From Candidatus Thalassarchaeum betae (lineage in GTDB: Archaea; Thermoplasmatota; Poseidoniia; Poseidoniales; Thalassarchaeaceae): a stretch of 64,000 nucleotides of DNA. The notes beneath the pieces are model-generated. The model searched no databases. It worked only from the letters and a program-made list of their open reading frames with translations, and was not told the origin of the DNA. Made by a program: the position numbers and the translations under genes. Positions 37,126 to 45,422 of the stretch are shown here, one piece after another. The stretch is taken from contig PSPG01000003.1 in assembly GCA_003193925.1 (NCBI GenBank), forward strand, positions 1 to 64,000, written 5' to 3'. Each line of letters opens with the position of its first letter. Positions within the stretch are counted from its first letter, which is position 1.

Positions 37126-37180
37126 GAGCGCCATACCTGTCTGCGTCAGTCTCATGACTGACGGCAGGGACGGCTTACTC

Positions 37181-38134
37181 ATGCGCGCGGCGCTGAGTAT
37201 GGCCCTGTCGGTCCTGCTGATGGCCACCGCGCTATCCGGCTGCACGAGCATCAGCGGTATCGTCGGGGGCTCTGATTCCGTCGAAGTCCCAGTTTGGGAG
37301 GTCGGCGATTGGTGGCTGTACACCTTCTCGACTCCAGACTACACCGACGACACGGCCCGACTGGTCGTCGCCTCCGTCAGCGAGGAGGACAACTCCTCCT
37401 ACATGCTTGCCATCTCGAGTCTGAGCGAGGCTCGCAGGCACGCGGTGCTGAATCACAACCCGTTCCTCGGCAGGATGACCCATGAGGACCTGAGCGCGTA
37501 CGAGAACGGCGTTGCCCGGACTGTGATGGACTTCCCATTGGATGAGGACAAGACATGGGAATTCACGCTGTTCTCCACCGAATGGAGCTCCAGTGTCAGG
37601 GGCGTCTCCGGGAACTCGGTGACCATCGGCGCTTTCGCGGATGACGGCTCCCAACTCGAATACGTCTACGACGGGGACGTCGGCTTCTTCTCGGCCTTCT
37701 TCTGGACCGACGCCTCCGGTGTCGAGCAGATGCGGATGATGCTCGCCGACAGCGGCGAAGGGCATACTGGCGACGTCTACTTCGTCCGCGGCGGCGACCT
37801 GTACTCTGACGAGTGGGAGGACACCGGGCCGGATATCGAGATCCGTGACACCTTCTTCGTCGGTGACCATCCCTCAGACGGCGAGTGGGACGAGATGATC
37901 TACTTCCTCGACGCCGAGTGCGGCGGGGGCTCCTCCAGCATCACCCTGACACTGCGGGACCATGCCTCGCTCTCCGCCCTCGAGAGGATCTGGGGACCGG
38001 GCGCCAGCGAGAGCGGCACTCTCGGCACCATCCCCTACCCCAGTGAGGAGTACACGCTGACTCTGACTTTCACCGGAAACACGTACCTGCGGCTCATGAT
38101 AGCAGGCGGGATAACCAGTTCTTGGAGCCTCTAG
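37181..38134 (+). CDS. Lipoprotein, unknown
   Basis: 317 residues from ATG 37181 (ATG 37154 adds nine). The signal peptide ends in ATALSGC, a lipobox, so the protein is probably surface-anchored. The mature part is rich in acidic residues and beta-strand-like segments (VPVWEVGDWWLYTFSTPD, ENGVARTVMDFPLDEDKTWEF) with no recognisable catalytic motif. Similar architecture is common for surface lipoproteins of this group. Short intergenic distance to hppA. Confidence 0.6.
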   Translation: MRAALSMALSVLLMATALSGCTSISGIVGGSDSVEVPVWEVGDWWLYTFSTPDYTDDTARLVVASVSEEDNSSYMLAISSLSEARRHAVLNHNPFLGRMTHEDLSAYENGVARTVMDFPLDEDKTWEFTLFSTEWSSSVRGVSGNSVTIGAFADDGSQLEYVYDGDVGFFSAFFWTDASGVEQMRMMLADSGEGHTGDVYFVRGGDLYSDEWEDTGPDIEIRDTFFVGDHPSDGEWDEMIYFLDAECGGGSSSITLTLRDHASLSALERIWGPGASESGTLGTIPYPSEEYTLTLTFTGNTYLRLMIAGGITSSWSL

Positions 38135-38397
38135 AGGTAATCGAGCAGGTGGTCCGAGCCACCGACGAACACGGGCTCCTCGCCCCTGAGGTCGAACAAG
38201 ATCGGAACCGTGCGGTGCTTGGTCTCAGCGACTACGGCCTCCCTCAGACCCTCGTGACGATCGAGGTTGACCTCCGTGTAACTGAGGCCGTGCGCCTCCA
38301 GCGTCCTCGTAGCGAGAGTGCAGTACGGGCAGACAGTCTGACTGAAGAACAGGAAGTCCGTATCTGCGGACTCAAGGTACTCACGTACTCGTGACAA
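38131..38397 (-). CDS. Glutaredoxin-like protein
   Basis: 88 residues. It has the thioredoxin-fold redox motif QTVCPYCTLATRTL, followed by VPILFDLRGEEPVFVGGSDHLLDYL with the cis-Pro and Gly-Gly-Ser-Asp of glutaredoxins. The start is unclear; TTG at 38397 is the only in-frame candidate close to the domain edge. It overlaps the stop of the protease-MFS gene by 17 bases, so it is probably translated after it. Confidence 0.8.
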   Translation of the reverse strand: MSRVREYLESADTDFLFFSQTVCPYCTLATRTLEAHGLSYTEVNLDRHEGLREAVVAETKHRTVPILFDLRGEEPVFVGGSDHLLDYL

Positions 38398-41300
38398 CGG
38401 CCTCGTCCTCCTCGTACCATGCCTCCGGCCGCTCTCCGAAGTCGCCATCGAACTCGTCCTCGCCATCACCGAAGCGGCCCTCGAGGACCCTGTCGACCTC
38501 ATCGGGATCGATGAACCATAGCAGTATCACCGTGAACAGGGTTAGCGCTGCTCCTATGTACAGCGAGGTGGTGTAGTCGAACCTCTGTATCATCTCGCCT
38601 GCGAACAGGTAGGCGAACACCGCCGAGAGGTTGAACATCGACATGTAGGCGGTGAACTGGGTCCCGCCGGCCTTGCTGAAGGTCAGCCTCATCGCGACAG
38701 CTATGATGCAGATCCAAGCGATGCCGTTGACGATGGAGCGGGCGCAAAGGTACGTGGTCATCACCGCAGTATTCGTCCAGTAGTCCGAGAGAAGCGCCAT
38801 TCCGGCGTTTGCCAAGGCTAGGAATGTGAAGCCGACCATAGCGACCTCCCTGACGCCAAACTTGTCCCCGATTATGCCTCCGATGATCTGTCCGAGCATC
38901 ATGAAGGCGATGACGATGCCACCCATGGTGACGTTGTACTTCGTCTGCGACCAGCTGGCCTCGTTGATGAAGATGTCAACCACTATCGGGTCGGTGAAGA
39001 GGTATAGTTCGGCCAGCAGGCACAGGAAGATGAGCAGGAAGGAAGAGCGGGTGGAGAAACCCTGGACGATGTAGTAGGCGGTACTGGAGACGTTCCTCTT
39101 CGACGATCTCGACATGAAGAAGAACGGATTGGGGACATCCGGTAGGGATACACCGAGCCACTCTGCGATGAGGAGTAGGGCGGTCAGGGCGAAACTGACC
39201 TTAGTGAACAGGAGGAACGGGCCTCCGATTGCGCCGTACGTCGCGTTGGTCGAAACTAGGTGGAGGATAGCGAACGCACCGCCGATGAGCAGGGCCACTA
39301 TGCTCACCCAAAGCAGTGCCGCGGGGAGGCTGACATTGTCCCGATACAGGTTGGTGGCTACCCATCTCGCCCTGTTGAAACGGGGGTCCTCGTCCCCATC
39401 CCAAGGCAGTGCGATCTCGGCCTCTGGATCTTCCTCCGACTCCTCCTCCTGGGTCCACCAGAGGTCCTCCTGGCCTTCCTCTGGCTTGCTCCAAGGGAAC
39501 AGCCTGTCCCCGGGCCTCTCGCGCAGGAACAGCGGCATCAACATGATGAGAAGCAGCACAGGCAGTTGGACCATGATCGCTGACTTGATGCCGAAGGGGA
39601 CGACCAGCATCCCGAGGACCGCCCCTCCGAATATGATGCCGCCGCGCTTGGCGGCGAACATGAAGCCGTTCGCCTTGGCGACCTCGTGGGGCTCTAGCAC
39701 ATCGACGGCGAGAGCGTCTACGCTGACGTCCTGCAAGGACGAGAACAGGTTGTGGACGAACAGCAGTATGGTAACGAGTCCGATTGAGGCGTTGAGGTCG
39801 GGCACGAAGAGCAGGGTGGATAGGGAGACCACCATCCCGGTCTGGGCGAATAGGATCCACGGGCGCCTGATTCCGTATGCTGGGAATCGAATTAGGTCAA
39901 TCATGGGGCCCCAGATGAACTTGAACGTCCAAGGCAGGGCGATAGTCGCGAACAGTATGGCGATCTGCTCGGGCGAGGCCCCGTTGTCGACGAGGTAGGC
40001 GACGAAGGCCACGTAGGTGAACCCGGACGGCAGTCCCTGGGCGACGTACAGCACGCACAGAGAGACGAAGCGCCTCATCGTGCTCTCTGTGAGCGAATTG
40101 CCTTCTTTCCATGATCGCCGGCCTGCTCTGAGAACTTCCGGGATGCGTGCCGGGCTGTAGGCCCTGATGTCGAACTCTCCGTCTTCGCCGTCTGAGGATG
40201 AGAGGGCGGAGAGGAACTTCCGGTCCCAGCGCTCATTGATCATGATGTAACCAAGCAAGGCCAAGATCATCACGAATGGAATGAAGAAGACGTAGGAGCC
40301 AATAGAAACCAAGCCGACTGCGGCGCCAACGGCCGACATCTCATCGATGAGGATGACCCTGCGGGCATCTACCGGGGAGATGCTGTCATCGGACATGACC
40401 AGCCTGGCGTAGATGGTGGTGTTGCCCGACTGCTCGTGCGGGTCGAGCTTGATGCGCCAACTTGCCCAGTCCCCGTTCTTGGACAGGTCGGCAGCCCCCT
40501 GCCACTCCCCCCCTCCAACCTTTACCTCAACGAGGCCGGTTCCGGGTGCGGCACCTGATGCAGTCCCGGCGATGTAGCTCTCGTTGCCGATCTCCTGCAG
40601 CGTGACGACGTCCATCGAGACGTTTAGCGAGCGGTCTATGCTGCCAGCCGCCTCGACGAAGGCCACCGGGTCGGCCTGACCGTAACCGAACTCGTTGTCA
40701 GGTCGAGATTCGAGCAGGCTGCAGTCGTTGAATCCGGGGTCGTCCAGCAATGCGATCTCCCGCTCTATCGAGTGGGCCCCGATGATGTCCTTGAACTCGG
40801 TCGGGGTCATGTCCGGATTGGCCTGCATCATCAGCGCGGCTATTCCTGCCATCAGCGGTGTGGCCATGCTGGTGCCGGACTTGCTGGTGTAGCCGTCCTT
40901 AGTGGCTGCATCGGGGGCCATGATGTTCGAGCCTATCGTGGCGACATCTGGCTTCACTCGCAAATCGGAGGTGTAGCCCCTGCTGCTGTAAATGGCGAGG
41001 CTGAGGTCCTTGTCCAGGCTAGCCACCGTAACGGGCAGTCGGGCGTCGCCCGGGCTGTCGATGGTGTTGCAGCCTGCGAGGGTGGCACCGCCGAACTCGT
41101 TGCCCGCGGACAGCGTGGTGATGATGCCGGCCTCGACCACCATGTCCATCTGGCGGCTCCAGGCAGAGTTGCCGTCGTTGTCGACGTGGATCTCGAACTG
41201 CTGCTCGCCGAGCGAGGAGGTGAGGATGTCGATGCCATGACCACCATCCCACTGACGATCCTTGTTGTCGATAGCCCACTGGGCACCCTGCATGATGTCC

Positions 41301-42205
41301 TCGATGTCGCCGTCGCAGCACGACAGGATGTTGATCAGGAATGCTCCCGGTGCTGCTCCGATGTAGCGTAGCCCGGTGCTGGGGTCGGTCTGACCTCCTC
41401 CCGTTCCAGCAGCGATGCCGGCAACATGGCTGCCATGGTCACTGGAGTCGTAGGACTCAGCCGGATCTTGCTCCGCGTCGGTTATCACGGCGTCGAAGAA
41501 GGCGATGATCTTCGGGTCACAGTCGGCTGGTATTGGGTCGGGGTTGGGGTCTAGTGGATCAGGTGGGTCATCGAGGCAGGTGAACGGGTCGTCGTCCATG
41601 TCGTTGAGGCCCTCATGGTCACCGCGAATCCCGGTGTCTAGGATCGCGATCACCGAGCCGGTGCCATCGAGGCCGAGTTCGGTCCAGACCTGGTCGACCC
41701 CTAGGGTCGGGACGGCTTCGTGCATGTTCGGCTCGGCCAGGCCGAGGTCCTCGACCATCACGACCCCGGGAAGGGCGCGGACGCCTTTGGGGTCGAGGAG
41801 CGCTGCGAAGGGGACCGTGGCAGCGAACAGGTCGAGGTACTTGGCCCGGAACGTGACCTCGGCGCCAAGCCGCTCGAGGACCCTGACGTCGGCGTCGGTA
41901 GGATGGTGGTCGTAGTCGACGAACACCCTGGCGCTCCCGGCCGGTGCTCGGCGCCACCAGTCCTGCTGGACGTCAGCCGGCTGCTCGAGCAGCCACTCGA
42001 GCCTGTCATCCAGTTGGTTGGCGTCCTTGTCGCGGCTCCAGTAGAGCCACCAGTAGGCATGGATGTCGGATTCCACCGAGGCACTCCAGTTGCCGTCTGC
42101 GTCGAATCCGCCGCGCCCGTCCTCGGCCATTATGGTCGATGAGGCGAGTGGCAGCAGGAACAGCAGGACGACTGCTGAGGCCAACGCTGCACGCCGTCCT
42201 GCCAT
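38381..42205 (-). CDS. Subtilisin-like protease fused to an MFS permease
   Basis: One continuous 1274-residue frame from ATG 42205. Residues 1-27 are a signal peptide. A subtilase domain follows with Asp190 (AILDTGIRGD), His257 (SDHGSHVAG), Asn369 (SAGNE) and Ser446 (SGTSMATPL). After a beta-rich segment comes a TM helix (about 632-656) and a linker. From about 710 to 1245 there are twelve TM helices of an AmpG-like MFS permease (LYVAQGLPSGFTYVAFV, RRPWILFAQTG), with a long acidic cytosolic loop (DLWWTQEEESEEDPEAEIA) between helices 6 and 7. The protease would face outside, so this could cut extracellular protein and import the products. No stop or good internal start is seen at the junction. 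Two separate genes joined by a lost stop is the alternative. Confidence 0.8.
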   Translation of the reverse strand: MAGRRAALASAVVLLFLLPLASSTIMAEDGRGGFDADGNWSASVESDIHAYWWLYWSRDKDANQLDDRLEWLLEQPADVQQDWWRRAPAGSARVFVDYDHHPTDADVRVLERLGAEVTFRAKYLDLFAATVPFAALLDPKGVRALPGVVMVEDLGLAEPNMHEAVPTLGVDQVWTELGLDGTGSVIAILDTGIRGDHEGLNDMDDDPFTCLDDPPDPLDPNPDPIPADCDPKIIAFFDAVITDAEQDPAESYDSSDHGSHVAGIAAGTGGGQTDPSTGLRYIGAAPGAFLINILSCCDGDIEDIMQGAQWAIDNKDRQWDGGHGIDILTSSLGEQQFEIHVDNDGNSAWSRQMDMVVEAGIITTLSAGNEFGGATLAGCNTIDSPGDARLPVTVASLDKDLSLAIYSSRGYTSDLRVKPDVATIGSNIMAPDAATKDGYTSKSGTSMATPLMAGIAALMMQANPDMTPTEFKDIIGAHSIEREIALLDDPGFNDCSLLESRPDNEFGYGQADPVAFVEAAGSIDRSLNVSMDVVTLQEIGNESYIAGTASGAAPGTGLVEVKVGGGEWQGAADLSKNGDWASWRIKLDPHEQSGNTTIYARLVMSDDSISPVDARRVILIDEMSAVGAAVGLVSIGSYVFFIPFVMILALLGYIMINERWDRKFLSALSSSDGEDGEFDIRAYSPARIPEVLRAGRRSWKEGNSLTESTMRRFVSLCVLYVAQGLPSGFTYVAFVAYLVDNGASPEQIAILFATIALPWTFKFIWGPMIDLIRFPAYGIRRPWILFAQTGMVVSLSTLLFVPDLNASIGLVTILLFVHNLFSSLQDVSVDALAVDVLEPHEVAKANGFMFAAKRGGIIFGGAVLGMLVVPFGIKSAIMVQLPVLLLIMLMPLFLRERPGDRLFPWSKPEEGQEDLWWTQEEESEEDPEAEIALPWDGDEDPRFNRARWVATNLYRDNVSLPAALLWVSIVALLIGGAFAILHLVSTNATYGAIGGPFLLFTKVSFALTALLLIAEWLGVSLPDVPNPFFFMSRSSKRNVSSTAYYIVQGFSTRSSFLLIFLCLLAELYLFTDPIVVDIFINEASWSQTKYNVTMGGIVIAFMMLGQIIGGIIGDKFGVREVAMVGFTFLALANAGMALLSDYWTNTAVMTTYLCARSIVNGIAWICIIAVAMRLTFSKAGGTQFTAYMSMFNLSAVFAYLFAGEMIQRFDYTTSLYIGAALTLFTVILLWFIDPDEVDRVLEGRFGDGEDEFDGDFGERPEAWYEEDEAVVTST

Positions 42206-42255: not shown

Positions 42256-43125
42256 TCAACTGACCTTCATTCCCTGATTGTCGTAGTCCCACTCGATGAC
42301 TTCCCAGCCGGCCTCCTCGACCGCGGAAACCGCTGTACTGACGCCCGTCGGGGAGCATAGCAGGCCCACTGAGCCACCGCCGCCTGCGCCCAAAGCCTTC
42401 CAAGCCACCGCCGAGCCCGCCTCCAGAAGGGGGTCAATCACGCCTCGAAACGGGTCGTGGATCGCCGGATCCAGCATGTCGACTCCCTTGCAGACCTCAT
42501 TGAGGGCATGGACCACGAGTTCGCGCCGATCGCGTTGAAGCCCCTCGGCCATGGTTCGTGCGGCCCCTCTGATGAGATGCAGGCCGCCGATCACCGACTC
42601 GTCGCCCTGATCGTAGCGCTCCCAGACCCCGGAGTGCATGTCTCCTGAGGTGTGCTCGATTCCCGTATAGGCGATGACGAAGTGCTTGCGCAGCCAGTTC
42701 CTCGCCGAGCGCATCGGCTCGAACGGCATCTCCTCGACCTCGTCGCCGAGGAAGAGCAGGTGGTTGAATCCACCATGTGCGGCGGCCCACTGGTCCTGCC
42801 TGCCGCCGCGGTTCTCGAGCAGGGCCTCGAACTGGAAGGCGAGCTCGGCGATGTCCTCAGGGCTCTTGTCGCCACCGGCGATGGTCGCAATCAGTCCGAC
42901 GTTCATCGCCCCGCTCGTCCCGAGGCCCGATCCCGTCGGCATGTCGCTGCTGTACTCGACCCGTATCCGCCCGTCCGCGTCCTTCTCCATGATGCTCCGG
43001 ATGTATCGATTGATGGCGAAGTTGACGACCTCGCCCCCGAAATCGCCGCTGTACGGCTGGACGTCGGTCCAGCCTCCTGCGAGGTCGACGCGTACGGGAA
43101 CCACCACTTCCACGCGTTCCGCCAT
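42256..43125 (-). CDS. GHMP sugar kinase (HddA-like)
   Basis: 289 residues from ATG 43125. It has VPVRVDLAGGWTDVQPYS, typical of D-glycero-D-manno-heptose 7-phosphate kinase and fucokinase C-domains, then the phosphate loop PTGSGLGTSGAMNVG, NRGGRQDQWAAAHGG, and the C-terminal ALGAGGGGSVGLL. It phosphorylates a sugar or sugar phosphate, perhaps for glycan or nucleotide-sugar synthesis; the exact substrate is uncertain. Divergent from ribB. Confidence 0.82.
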   Translation of the reverse strand: MAERVEVVVPVRVDLAGGWTDVQPYSGDFGGEVVNFAINRYIRSIMEKDADGRIRVEYSSDMPTGSGLGTSGAMNVGLIATIAGGDKSPEDIAELAFQFEALLENRGGRQDQWAAAHGGFNHLLFLGDEVEEMPFEPMRSARNWLRKHFVIAYTGIEHTSGDMHSGVWERYDQGDESVIGGLHLIRGAARTMAEGLQRDRRELVVHALNEVCKGVDMLDPAIHDPFRGVIDPLLEAGSAVAWKALGAGGGGSVGLLCSPTGVSTAVSAVEEAGWEVIEWDYDNQGMKVS

Positions 43126-43173
43126 CGAACACAGCAAATCTCCGACCCATGAGAAGGATTCGGTCTGCGACCG

Positions 43174-43207: not shown

Positions 43208-43921
43208 ATGGCCTCCGGTGTGGATCGAGCCATCGCCGCATTCGTCGCCGGTGAGCCAGTCATGGTGTTCGACTCAGCCTTCAGGGAGCGGGAGACCGAC
43301 CTGCTGTGGCCCGCGGACGCCGCGACGCCGGAGGTCATGCGGACTCTGCGCAAAGACTGCGGCGGCCTGCTGTTCCTCGCTATCGGAAACGAGATCGGCG
43401 AGCTCTTCGGGCTGCCATGGCTGCAGGACATCCATTCGCACCCTGCGCTGGTCAAGGAGAACCCGGTGCTCGCCGATCTCGTGACCAACGACCTGCAGTA
43501 CGACACGCGCTCTGCATTCACAGTCTCACTGAACCACAGGGACACGTACACCGGAATCACCGACCGCGACCGCGCCCTGACCACCCGCAGATTCGGCGAA
43601 CTGACCGGTGAACTGCTCGCCAGTGGGGCGGACGGTGAGGCTGCGCGAGCCGCACTCGGCGCCGAGTTTCGCACCCCCGGGCACATCCCAGTGTGCCGAG
43701 AGTCCCGGCAGGGGCTCAGGACGCGACAGGGGCACACCGAGCTGGCCGTCTCGATAGCGCGGCTCTCCGGGCACTCGCCGTGCACCATCGGCGCCGAAAT
43801 GCTGCAGCCGGACGGCGACGGCGCTCTGGCTGTCGAGGATGCCCGCGAATACGCCCGCAAGCGTGGCATACCGATGATCACCGGGGCAGACATACTCGAG
43901 GCGCTTGGGATAGACGAATGA
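43208..43921 (+). CDS. ribB: 3,4-dihydroxy-2-butanone 4-phosphate synthase
   Basis: 237 residues. It converts ribulose 5-phosphate to 3,4-dihydroxy-2-butanone 4-phosphate and formate, the four-carbon piece of riboflavin. It has VMVFDSAFRERETDLL (the acidic loop), DLQYDTRSAFTVSLNHRDTYTGITDRDRALT, FRTPGHIPVCRE and GHTELAVSIARLSG, as in archaeal RibB. It is the first gene of a riboflavin/FAD set; ribL follows 43 bases later. Confidence 0.93.
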   Translation: MASGVDRAIAAFVAGEPVMVFDSAFRERETDLLWPADAATPEVMRTLRKDCGGLLFLAIGNEIGELFGLPWLQDIHSHPALVKENPVLADLVTNDLQYDTRSAFTVSLNHRDTYTGITDRDRALTTRRFGELTGELLASGADGEAARAALGAEFRTPGHIPVCRESRQGLRTRQGHTELAVSIARLSGHSPCTIGAEMLQPDGDGALAVEDAREYARKRGIPMITGADILEALGIDE

Positions 43922-43964
43922 GGCGAAGGATTGAGGCAGGTCTGCGTTTCGGGGGTGTGAGAGC

Positions 43965-44423
43965 ATGGTGCGCGTGATGGCCGTCGGCATTTTCGATCTC
44001 CTTCACGCCGGGCACCTGCACTACCTCGAGCAGGCCAAGTCGCTGGGCGACGAACTGGTCGTCGTGGTTGCTCACGATGACACGGTCCGCAATCAGAAGC
44101 ACGAGCCCATAACGGGCCAGGAGTTGCGACGCAGGATGGTTGCCGGGCTGAAGCCGGTGGACGAGGCCATCGTGGGTAACCCCCCTTCAGTCCCGATCTT
44201 CGACATCCTCGATGTCGTCAAGCCCGACAAAATCGCTCTGGGCTACGACCAGAAGCACTCGATCGAAGCCGTCCGGGCAGGTCTGGAGAGACAGGGCCAT
44301 GGCCACATCGAGGTCGTAAGGGTAGAAGGGCTCTCGGACGACTTGGACGGGACTCGCAAGATCATCTCAAAGATCCTTGACCTCTGGACCGGGACCGAAG
44401 ACGGCCCCTACGAGGAGGATTGA
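43965..44423 (+). CDS. ribL: FAD synthase (archaeal RibL type)
   Basis: 152 residues. A nucleotidyltransferase that adenylates FMN to FAD. It carries the HxGH motif in GIFDLLHAGHLHYL, the DTVRNQKH segment and the GYDQKHS substrate motif expected of RibL; the fifth residue of the first motif is Ile where Thr is common. Unlike bacterial RibF there is no kinase domain. Start ATG 43965. It is followed by the riboflavin synthase ATG two bases after its stop. Confidence 0.88.
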   Translation: MVRVMAVGIFDLLHAGHLHYLEQAKSLGDELVVVVAHDDTVRNQKHEPITGQELRRRMVAGLKPVDEAIVGNPPSVPIFDILDVVKPDKIALGYDQKHSIEAVRAGLERQGHGHIEVVRVEGLSDDLDGTRKIISKILDLWTGTEDGPYEED

Positions 44424-44424
44424 G

Positions 44425-45030
44425 ATGTTCACCGGTATCGTACAGGGCACCGGAGAGGTGACTTCGATCTCGGATGGCGGCACAGTGCGTCGGTTCTCCA
44501 TTGAGATGAGTGGTCTGAGCGATGAGCTCGGGATGGGTGCGAGCGTATCCGTCGATGGCGTCTGCCTGACTGTATCCGGAATGGAAGGGAGCGTCGTCGA
44601 CTTCGATGCGATTCCCGAGACGCTGGAGCGCTCGACTCTCGGGGGCCTGTGTGTCGGTGATGCGGTGAACCTCGAGCGCGCCCTGCGCATGGGCGATGAG
44701 CTGGGAGGGCACGTCCTGTCCGGGCATGTAATGGCCACAGCGGAGGTGCTCGGCCGTAGCGAGGTCGGCGAGGGCGTCGACATGGAGATCTCCGTCTCGT
44801 CGGACATCAGGCCGTTTGTCATGGAGAAGGGCTACATCGCCGTCGACGGTATCAGCCTCACCGTCGGCCGGGTCAGGGCCGAGTCGTTCGACGTCCACCT
44901 GATTCCCGAGACCCTCGAGAGGACGACCATCGGCAGCAAGTCTGAGAGCAGCCTTGTAAACATCGAGGTCGACCCAATGACCCAAGCTGTGGTCGAGACC
45001 ATCTCACGGATGATGGAGGCACGCCAGTGA
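44425..45030 (+). CDS. ribE: Riboflavin synthase, bacterial (trimeric) type
   Basis: 201 residues. It makes riboflavin from two lumazines. Two tandem lumazine-binding barrels: MFTGIVQGTGEV ... VSVDGVCLTVSG with FDAIPETLERSTLG, and the second with GHVLSGHVMAT, YIAVDGISLTVGRV and HLIPETLERTTIG. Most archaea use a different, pentameric synthase, so the bacterial-type enzyme here suggests transfer. GGAGGATTGAG precedes the ATG. Its stop overlaps the ribH start. Confidence 0.93.
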   Translation: MFTGIVQGTGEVTSISDGGTVRRFSIEMSGLSDELGMGASVSVDGVCLTVSGMEGSVVDFDAIPETLERSTLGGLCVGDAVNLERALRMGDELGGHVLSGHVMATAEVLGRSEVGEGVDMEISVSSDIRPFVMEKGYIAVDGISLTVGRVRAESFDVHLIPETLERTTIGSKSESSLVNIEVDPMTQAVVETISRMMEARQ

Positions 45031-45422
45031 ACCTCGGCATCGTCTGCGGAGCCTTCCACCGCGAGCACGTCGAGAGTATGCTGGAGTACGCCCGCGACGA
45101 GGCCGCATCGAAGAACTGGGAGGTCGCTGATGTGGTCTGGGTTCCCGGCTCGATGGAGGCTCCTCTAGCACTGGAGAGGATGCTCCAGCGAGAGGACATC
45201 GATGGCGCTGTCGCGCTCGGCATCATCGAGCGGGGCCAGACCGATCACGGTCTGGTCATGGGACAGTCCGTGACGAGGGCGATCATCGAGTTGCAGATTG
45301 CACACAATAAGCCCATCGGGCTCGGGATAATCGGTCCTGGCGCCGAGCCAGAGCACATCGTGGCGCGGTTGGAACCGCATGCCCGCGCTGCTGTCGGCGC
45401 GGTCGCGGCCATGGTAGAGTGA
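45027..45422 (+). CDS. ribH: 6,7-dimethyl-8-ribityllumazine synthase
   Basis: 131 residues. It condenses the RibB product with the pyrimidine precursor to give lumazine. It has VCGAFHREHVESML at the N-terminus, WVPGSMEAPLALERM, and VALGIIERGQTDHG with the His that binds phosphate. Its GTG start overlaps the ribE stop (GTGA), so the two are coupled. It is somewhat shorter than the 150-residue bacterial enzyme, like archaeal forms. A GTP cyclohydrolase and reductase for the other branch are not in the window. Confidence 0.93.
   Translation: MNLGIVCGAFHREHVESMLEYARDEAASKNWEVADVVWVPGSMEAPLALERMLQREDIDGAVALGIIERGQTDHGLVMGQSVTRAIIELQIAHNKPIGLGIIGPGAEPEHIVARLEPHARAAVGAVAAMVE

Follow-up and report, generated by a model that had tools for sequence, protein, structure and literature searches.

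A predicted subtilase and an AmpG/SLC33A1-like permease joined in one polypeptide in Poseidoniia, a candidate for tethered digestion and import of peptides

A peptidase and a transporter share one chain in PCAT (C39), where the transporter is of the ATP-binding cassette (ABC) type, and among permeases with the fold of the major facilitator superfamily (MFS), AmpG moves muropeptides. For SLC33A1, the solute moved is oxidised glutathione (GSSG; PMC12889552). Marine group II (MGII) archaea break down protein in the ocean, where they are abundant, and the MGII literature examined describes no culture of them. Published accounts depict them as users of protein that have extracellular peptidases of families S8 and M28 (PMC6864105, PMC6336850), the S8 peptidases being described as extracellular (PMC6864105), and subtilase genes appear among the highly transcribed MGII genes (PMC9723583). 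How these archaea prevent the diffusive loss of what they digest outside the cell is a question, to which a protease joined to an importer would be a direct answer. Here, we analysed a 64,000-nucleotide stretch of Candidatus Thalassarchaeum betae (contig PSPG01000003.1, positions 1 to 64,000; hereafter the window), in which a single gene on the minus strand (38381..42205) encodes a predicted subtilase followed by an MFS permease.

The gene reads from ATG 42205 to a stop at 38381 (stop included in the coordinates) and encodes 1274 residues with no stop within the frame. From N- to C-terminus, the protein comprises a signal peptide, a propeptide, an S8 subtilase, a β domain, a transmembrane (TM) helix, termed TM0, and an AmpG/SLC33A1-like MFS permease. 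The open frame extends upstream as far as TTG 42403, inside the next gene; since the starts of aligned relatives fall at ATG 42205 (M-A/V-G-R-R), a conserved start, this ATG was taken as the start. The catalytic domain (residues 181–509, 40679..41665) matched Pfam Peptidase_S8 (4.9e-42, 144.6 bits against a cut-off of 21.8). The codons for catalytic Asp190 (41636..41638), His257 (41435..41437) and Ser446 (40868..40870) and for the oxyanion-hole Asn369 (41099..41101) were verified directly in the DNA, and none of the four residues varies among 53 aligned fused proteins wherever covered, one 5'-truncated protein being without the Asp position. The Pfam score, the triad and the oxyanion Asn place the domain in family S8, and proteolytic activity is predicted. 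The permease matched Pfam MFS_1 from residue 716 in two stretches (8.2e-29, 101 bits against 33.4) and BT1 (PF03092; 2e-13, 50.3 bits against 22), the latter over only the first 177 of 432 model positions. The NCBIfam model of the AmpG family, TIGR00901, matched residues 710–1231 (2.7e-38) at 131.7 bits, below its curated cut-off of 350 bits, and Acatn/SLC33A1 (PF13000) resembles the MFS half in sequence and fold. Membership of the MFS follows from the MFS_1 score, the 6 + 6 core helices in the structural model and the matches to MFS structures.

Sought in related Poseidoniales genomes, the same join was found in one frame, with no internal stops, in about 71 of the 292 genomes of the order that were scanned (fused copies counted by hand from the match list). 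These genomes belong to seven genera of Ca. Thalassarchaeaceae, labelled here g1 (10 genomes), g2 (11), g3 (3), g4 (20), g7 (16), g9 (2) and g10 (9), and full-length fused matches within the family have identities of 59–77%. The related records from the named collection are called Ca. Thalassarchaeaceae, Marine group II, Ca. Poseidoniales and similar. One full-length fused copy (L177, AG-422-I22) comes from a record that is not labelled as a metagenome-assembled genome (MAG) and bears an isolate name in single-cell style, so this is likely a single-cell genome. The same architecture recurs in marine group III, which is another order of the class: five genomes have it (L124–L128, 1168–1206 residues), with identities of about 48% for the ectodomain, ranging from about 47 to 51%, and of 33–50% for the permease. 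These copies rule out a recent one-off fusion. Two more fused records (L199 and L203) are named as marine group III euryarchaeotes. Outside the class, no fusion was found in the sampled phylum among the listed permease homologues, with frames of 277–566 residues; the contig scan was built on subtilase motifs, its matches outside Poseidoniia spanned the subtilase part only, and fusions to other subtilases could escape it.

The join itself behaves as coding sequence. Internal stops are absent from all 53 fused genes. Across 21 close pairs, the ratio of nonsynonymous to synonymous substitution rates (dN/dS) was 0.025 for the subtilase, 0.03 for the MFS halves, 0.18 for the loop between helices 6 and 7 and about 0.26 for TM0 and the linker (residues 641–705). 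On these ratios, the join is coding sequence, though loosely constrained, and under purifying selection. There is no ATG in the junction of 24 of the 53 fused genes, and no internal start is conserved, any start-codon column being common to at most 13 of 53. These counts rule out a hidden internal start yielding two proteins, in line with the remark in the initial annotation that a good internal start is lacking. A true functional fusion is thus strongly supported, since two orders share it, stops are absent, the junction is under purifying selection, no internal start is conserved and non-MAG records contain it.

N-terminal to the catalytic domain lie a hydrophobic segment read as a signal peptide (residues 1–27, 42125..42205; hydropathy peak at 8–26 and aligned starts) and a probable propeptide region (residues 28–165, 41711..42124), assigned by fold alignment with ProN-Tk-SP at moderate model confidence. 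On the C-terminal side, AlphaFold2 strands delineate a β-rich domain (residues 521–637, 40295..40645), followed by the anchor helix TM0 (residues 638–657, 40235..40294; hydropathy at 638–656 and a helix in the model) and the cytosolic linker, or join region (residues 658–708, 40082..40234). Hydropathy and the model predict 14 TM helices in the permease (6 + 2 + 6) besides TM0. The N-half (TM1–6, residues 709–893, 39527..40081) is defined by profile matches and the model, and an acidic disordered loop follows it (residues 896–940, 39386..39520), with a predicted local distance difference test score (pLDDT) below 50 over most of its length. Hydropathy and the model then place two extra TM helices between the halves (residues 960–1016, 39158..39328), and the C-half has six helices (residues 1053–1230, 38516..39049; TIGR00901 match and model). 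The extra helix pair occurs in Thalassarchaeaceae and marine group III permeases and is apparently absent from the shorter permeases of family f2, which we take to be Poseidoniaceae.

The AlphaFold2 model of the whole protein is of moderate confidence (pLDDT 64.9, predicted template modelling score 0.50), and modelling the ectodomain alone brought no gain (pLDDT 63.1). Both models serve for topology and fold rather than for geometry or the placement of the protease over the pore, and because of their moderate confidence we make no claim about that position. For the whole model, the best Foldseek match was AmpG, followed by Tk-SP; for the isolated ectodomain it was Tk-SP. The initial annotation is upheld in its uninterrupted frame of 1274 residues, its complete subtilase with the four active-site residues, its TM helix and AmpG-like permease from about residue 710 and its acidic loop between helices 6 and 7. 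Its 12-helix permease gives way to 14 predicted helices plus TM0, and the strand is corrected to minus.

We propose that the fused product is a tethered digest-and-import protein that takes up peptides, with a probability of about 0.55 judged from sequence and predicted fold. The signal peptide would send the N-terminus out, and the subtilase would fold with its propeptide, mature and lie exposed outside the cell's single membrane, as its family and the topology suggest. TM0 is predicted to bring the chain back to the cytosol, where the 14-helix AmpG/SLC33A1-type permease would begin. With both MFS ends inside, the protease active site and the outer mouth of the permease would face the same side. 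There it would cleave proteins beside that mouth, and the permease would take up the short peptides released, probably via an ion gradient. Peptide import is supported by the permease relatives AmpG and SLC33A1, which move peptide-bearing solutes, and the digest-and-import role by the repeated attachment of unrelated peptidases to the permease. The extracellular S8 and M28 peptidases and the strongly transcribed subtilase genes described for MGII also favour this role.

The second such peptidase is M28. The protein P0003 (L116) joins an M28 domain (Pfam 1.6e-18) to the same permease family and has full-length matches of 64–79% in genera g15 and g5. Genus g17 has the M28–MFS join in frames of 976–989 residues, giving 12 genomes in all (g15, g17 and g5) with M28 on the main permease family. 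The M28–MFS fusions span 873–989 residues (L116:4345-7002, minus strand; L115:4110-7037, minus strand; L152–L158) and lie in g15 and g17 of f2 and in g5 of Thalassarchaeaceae. A further set (L119 and relatives, g6 and g21) has an M28 domain 73% identical to that of P0003 and an MFS part only about 22% identical to the window permease. M28 has thus been joined to two different permeases. In the fusion at L119:2258-4891 (plus strand), the permease is a second, divergent MFS-like one, independent of the main family. The genome of the window also encodes a stand-alone M28 protein (contig C18:81513-82586, minus strand), 57% identical to the M28–MFS ectodomain. On this pattern, the permease is a chassis with an exchangeable outer domain, to which peptidases were recruited at least twice. 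We infer that cutting is coupled to peptide import, a link which M28 on the same permease strengthens and non-peptidase ectodomains weaken.

Several observations weigh against our proposal. The main permease family also occurs with a cupredoxin ectodomain (L142; PF00127, 3.4e-13), with a lipobox ectodomain of unassigned kind or another β domain, and as bare permeases of 440–460 residues. A peptidase is thus not essential to the family, and such ectodomains caution against reading the substrate as peptides only. The linker is the least conserved segment of the protein, the permease scores below the AmpG family cut-off, and the neighbouring GHMP sugar kinase hints at sugar or glycopeptide substrates. 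The trees of the two halves are also discordant within Thalassarchaeaceae: in G113 and G263 the ectodomain groups with g4 and the permease with g1, while in G011 the ectodomain groups with g3 and the permease with g4. This discordance indicates that the halves recombine and points to recombination near the join, as far as gene trees can tell. The cupredoxin protein is a plastocyanin-like ectodomain plus permease of 662 residues in genus g15 (L142:1262-3247, minus strand). A module like the f2 lipobox ectodomain also forms the C-terminal end of a 719-residue protein with no permease match (L042:1445-3601, minus strand).

The ectodomain varies at a fixed slot in the genome, with the subtilase present in most genomes. 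Most of g3 and g9, and also G193, have a permease of about 900 residues (785 in G193) with an unrelated β-rich ectodomain. The orthologous subtilase of g3 and g9 is a separate gene of about 690 residues with its own C-terminal TM helix, lying in g3 about 12–14 kb away, where it forms a tandem pair with a subtilase paralogue. Of the pattern that had been named as counting against a fusion, two separate genes with a stop at the junction, the separate genes thus exist and the junction stop does not; the permease of g3 and g9 bears a different ectodomain and the subtilase is encoded elsewhere. In the MFS tree that includes marine group III, its fused proteins group with Thalassarchaeaceae (99/97), apart from the Poseidoniaceae set. 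The ectodomain and MFS trees each need three changes (one gain and two losses, or more) and disagree in places. The placement of marine group III fits a single ancient S8 fusion followed by replacements, or transfer between orders.

These swaps, which include non-peptidases, together with the recombination of the halves and the stand-alone membrane-anchored subtilases that fulfil this function in g3 and g9, would suit a permease that is only a convenient membrane anchor, with ectodomain and permease acting independently and without channelling. However, stand-alone S8 enzymes have their own TM anchor and so do not need a permease, and the same permease was joined by peptidases of two unrelated families. 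We consider anchoring alone unlikely.

Comparison of the loci indicates a conserved slot, pyrophosphatase–glutaredoxin–permease–sugar kinase–riboflavin genes, at all Thalassarchaeaceae permease loci tested. Within the sequence covered at each locus, one flank holds a membrane pyrophosphatase, a lipoprotein-like protein and a glutaredoxin, and the other begins, in most cases, with a GHMP sugar kinase and continues with ribB, a nucleotidyltransferase, riboflavin synthase, lumazine synthase and thioredoxin reductase; most of these names are presumptive, resting on sequence motifs and general knowledge. In the window, the glutaredoxin-like gene lies downstream of the fused gene (38131..38502, minus strand) and the GHMP kinase (HddA/fucokinase-like) upstream (42256..43137, minus strand). 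A conserved lipoprotein-like protein with no Pfam match (37154-38134, plus strand) lies between pyrophosphatase and glutaredoxin, as in Thalassarchaeaceae loci. DHBP synthase, nucleotidyltransferase, riboflavin synthase and lumazine synthase genes (43208-45422, plus strand) adjoin the fused gene and do so in all Thalassarchaeaceae genera tested. The slot extends to genus g17 of Poseidoniaceae, where the permease at L115 carries a Peptidase_M28 ectodomain (Pfam 1.2e-17) beside the membrane pyrophosphatase, glutaredoxin and GHMP kinase.

The kinase suggests a different substrate: the protease could trim glycoproteins or scavenged cell-wall material, the permease import glycopeptides or sugars, and the kinase phosphorylate the sugar. 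Most loci, whether fused or not, have it immediately upstream, and it is closest to heptose/fucose kinases, though below cut-off. AmpG is the closest solved fold, and in Tannerella the ampG operon is co-transcribed with N-acetylmuramic acid (MurNAc) uptake and kinase genes (PMC5388701). However, g2 and some of g7 retain the fusion without the kinase, which is thus not obligatory; marine group III has other neighbours, a TGT gene among them; and the permease scores below the NCBI AmpG cut-offs. We consider a glycopeptide or sugar importer distinctly improbable. Still less credible is an exporter of a peptide-like product matured by the outer protease: the direction of an MFS permease is unreadable from sequence and peptidase-containing ABC exporters offer a precedent, but AmpG is characterised as an importer, the peptidase lies on the opposite side from the PCAT arrangement, and no gene for a precursor peptide was noticed next to the fused gene, though no systematic search for one was made. 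An assembly error, an overlooked frameshift or two genes mistaken for one, conceivable because nearly all genomes are MAGs, is effectively refuted by conservation (about 71 independent assemblies, a second order, non-MAG records with single-cell style names, no internal stops, and junction changes in codon register) and has a negligible chance.

A broader proposal goes beyond tethered digestion and import in this one protein, and we offer it tentatively, at somewhat less than even odds. Poseidoniia may hold a new class of covalent ectopeptidase–permeases, built independently at least twice: secondary importers whose interchangeable outer S8 and M28 domains would digest protein at the membrane and hand peptides directly to the MFS pore. 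If true, this would give a substrate clue for the MFS branch related to AmpG and SLC33A1. The occurrence of a second kind of peptidase on the same transporter suggests that these archaea cleave proteins directly at the import gate.

Each domain comes from a known family, and no description of a covalent S8– or M28–MFS protein was found in the open-licence literature; earlier mention elsewhere is possible. The MGII surveys, as far as their text could be searched by term, count S8 and M28 peptidases and do not mention peptidase–transporter joins. Tk-SP and other S8A subtilases (PDB 3afg, subtilisin BPN') share the propeptide, the D/H/N/S catalytic domain and the C-terminal β domain, but are secreted or anchored alone, whereas the window protein adds a permease. 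AmpG (TIGR00901; PDB 9c3f, 9j9z) shares the MFS fold and the QD-x3-D region and is the best structural match; the window permease differs in its added ectodomain and TM0, its score below the family cut-off, its archaeal host and a substrate that is predicted only. SLC33A1 (Acatn, PF13000; PDB 9m0s, 9mun) is similar in sequence and fold over the MFS half but is a eukaryotic endoplasmic reticulum protein with no peptidase. PCAT differs in having a cytosolic cysteine peptidase on an ATP-driven exporter. In ACE2–B0AT1, an outer peptidase is likewise held beside an amino-acid importer (PMC8194517, PMC5600382), but as two proteins of unrelated families in non-covalent association. Also related are the Poseidoniales M28–MFS fusions (L116, L115), which have the same permease family, an N-terminal ectopeptidase and, in g17, the same slot, and which differ in having a metallopeptidase in place of the subtilase and a permease that, judged by its length, lacks the extra helix pair.

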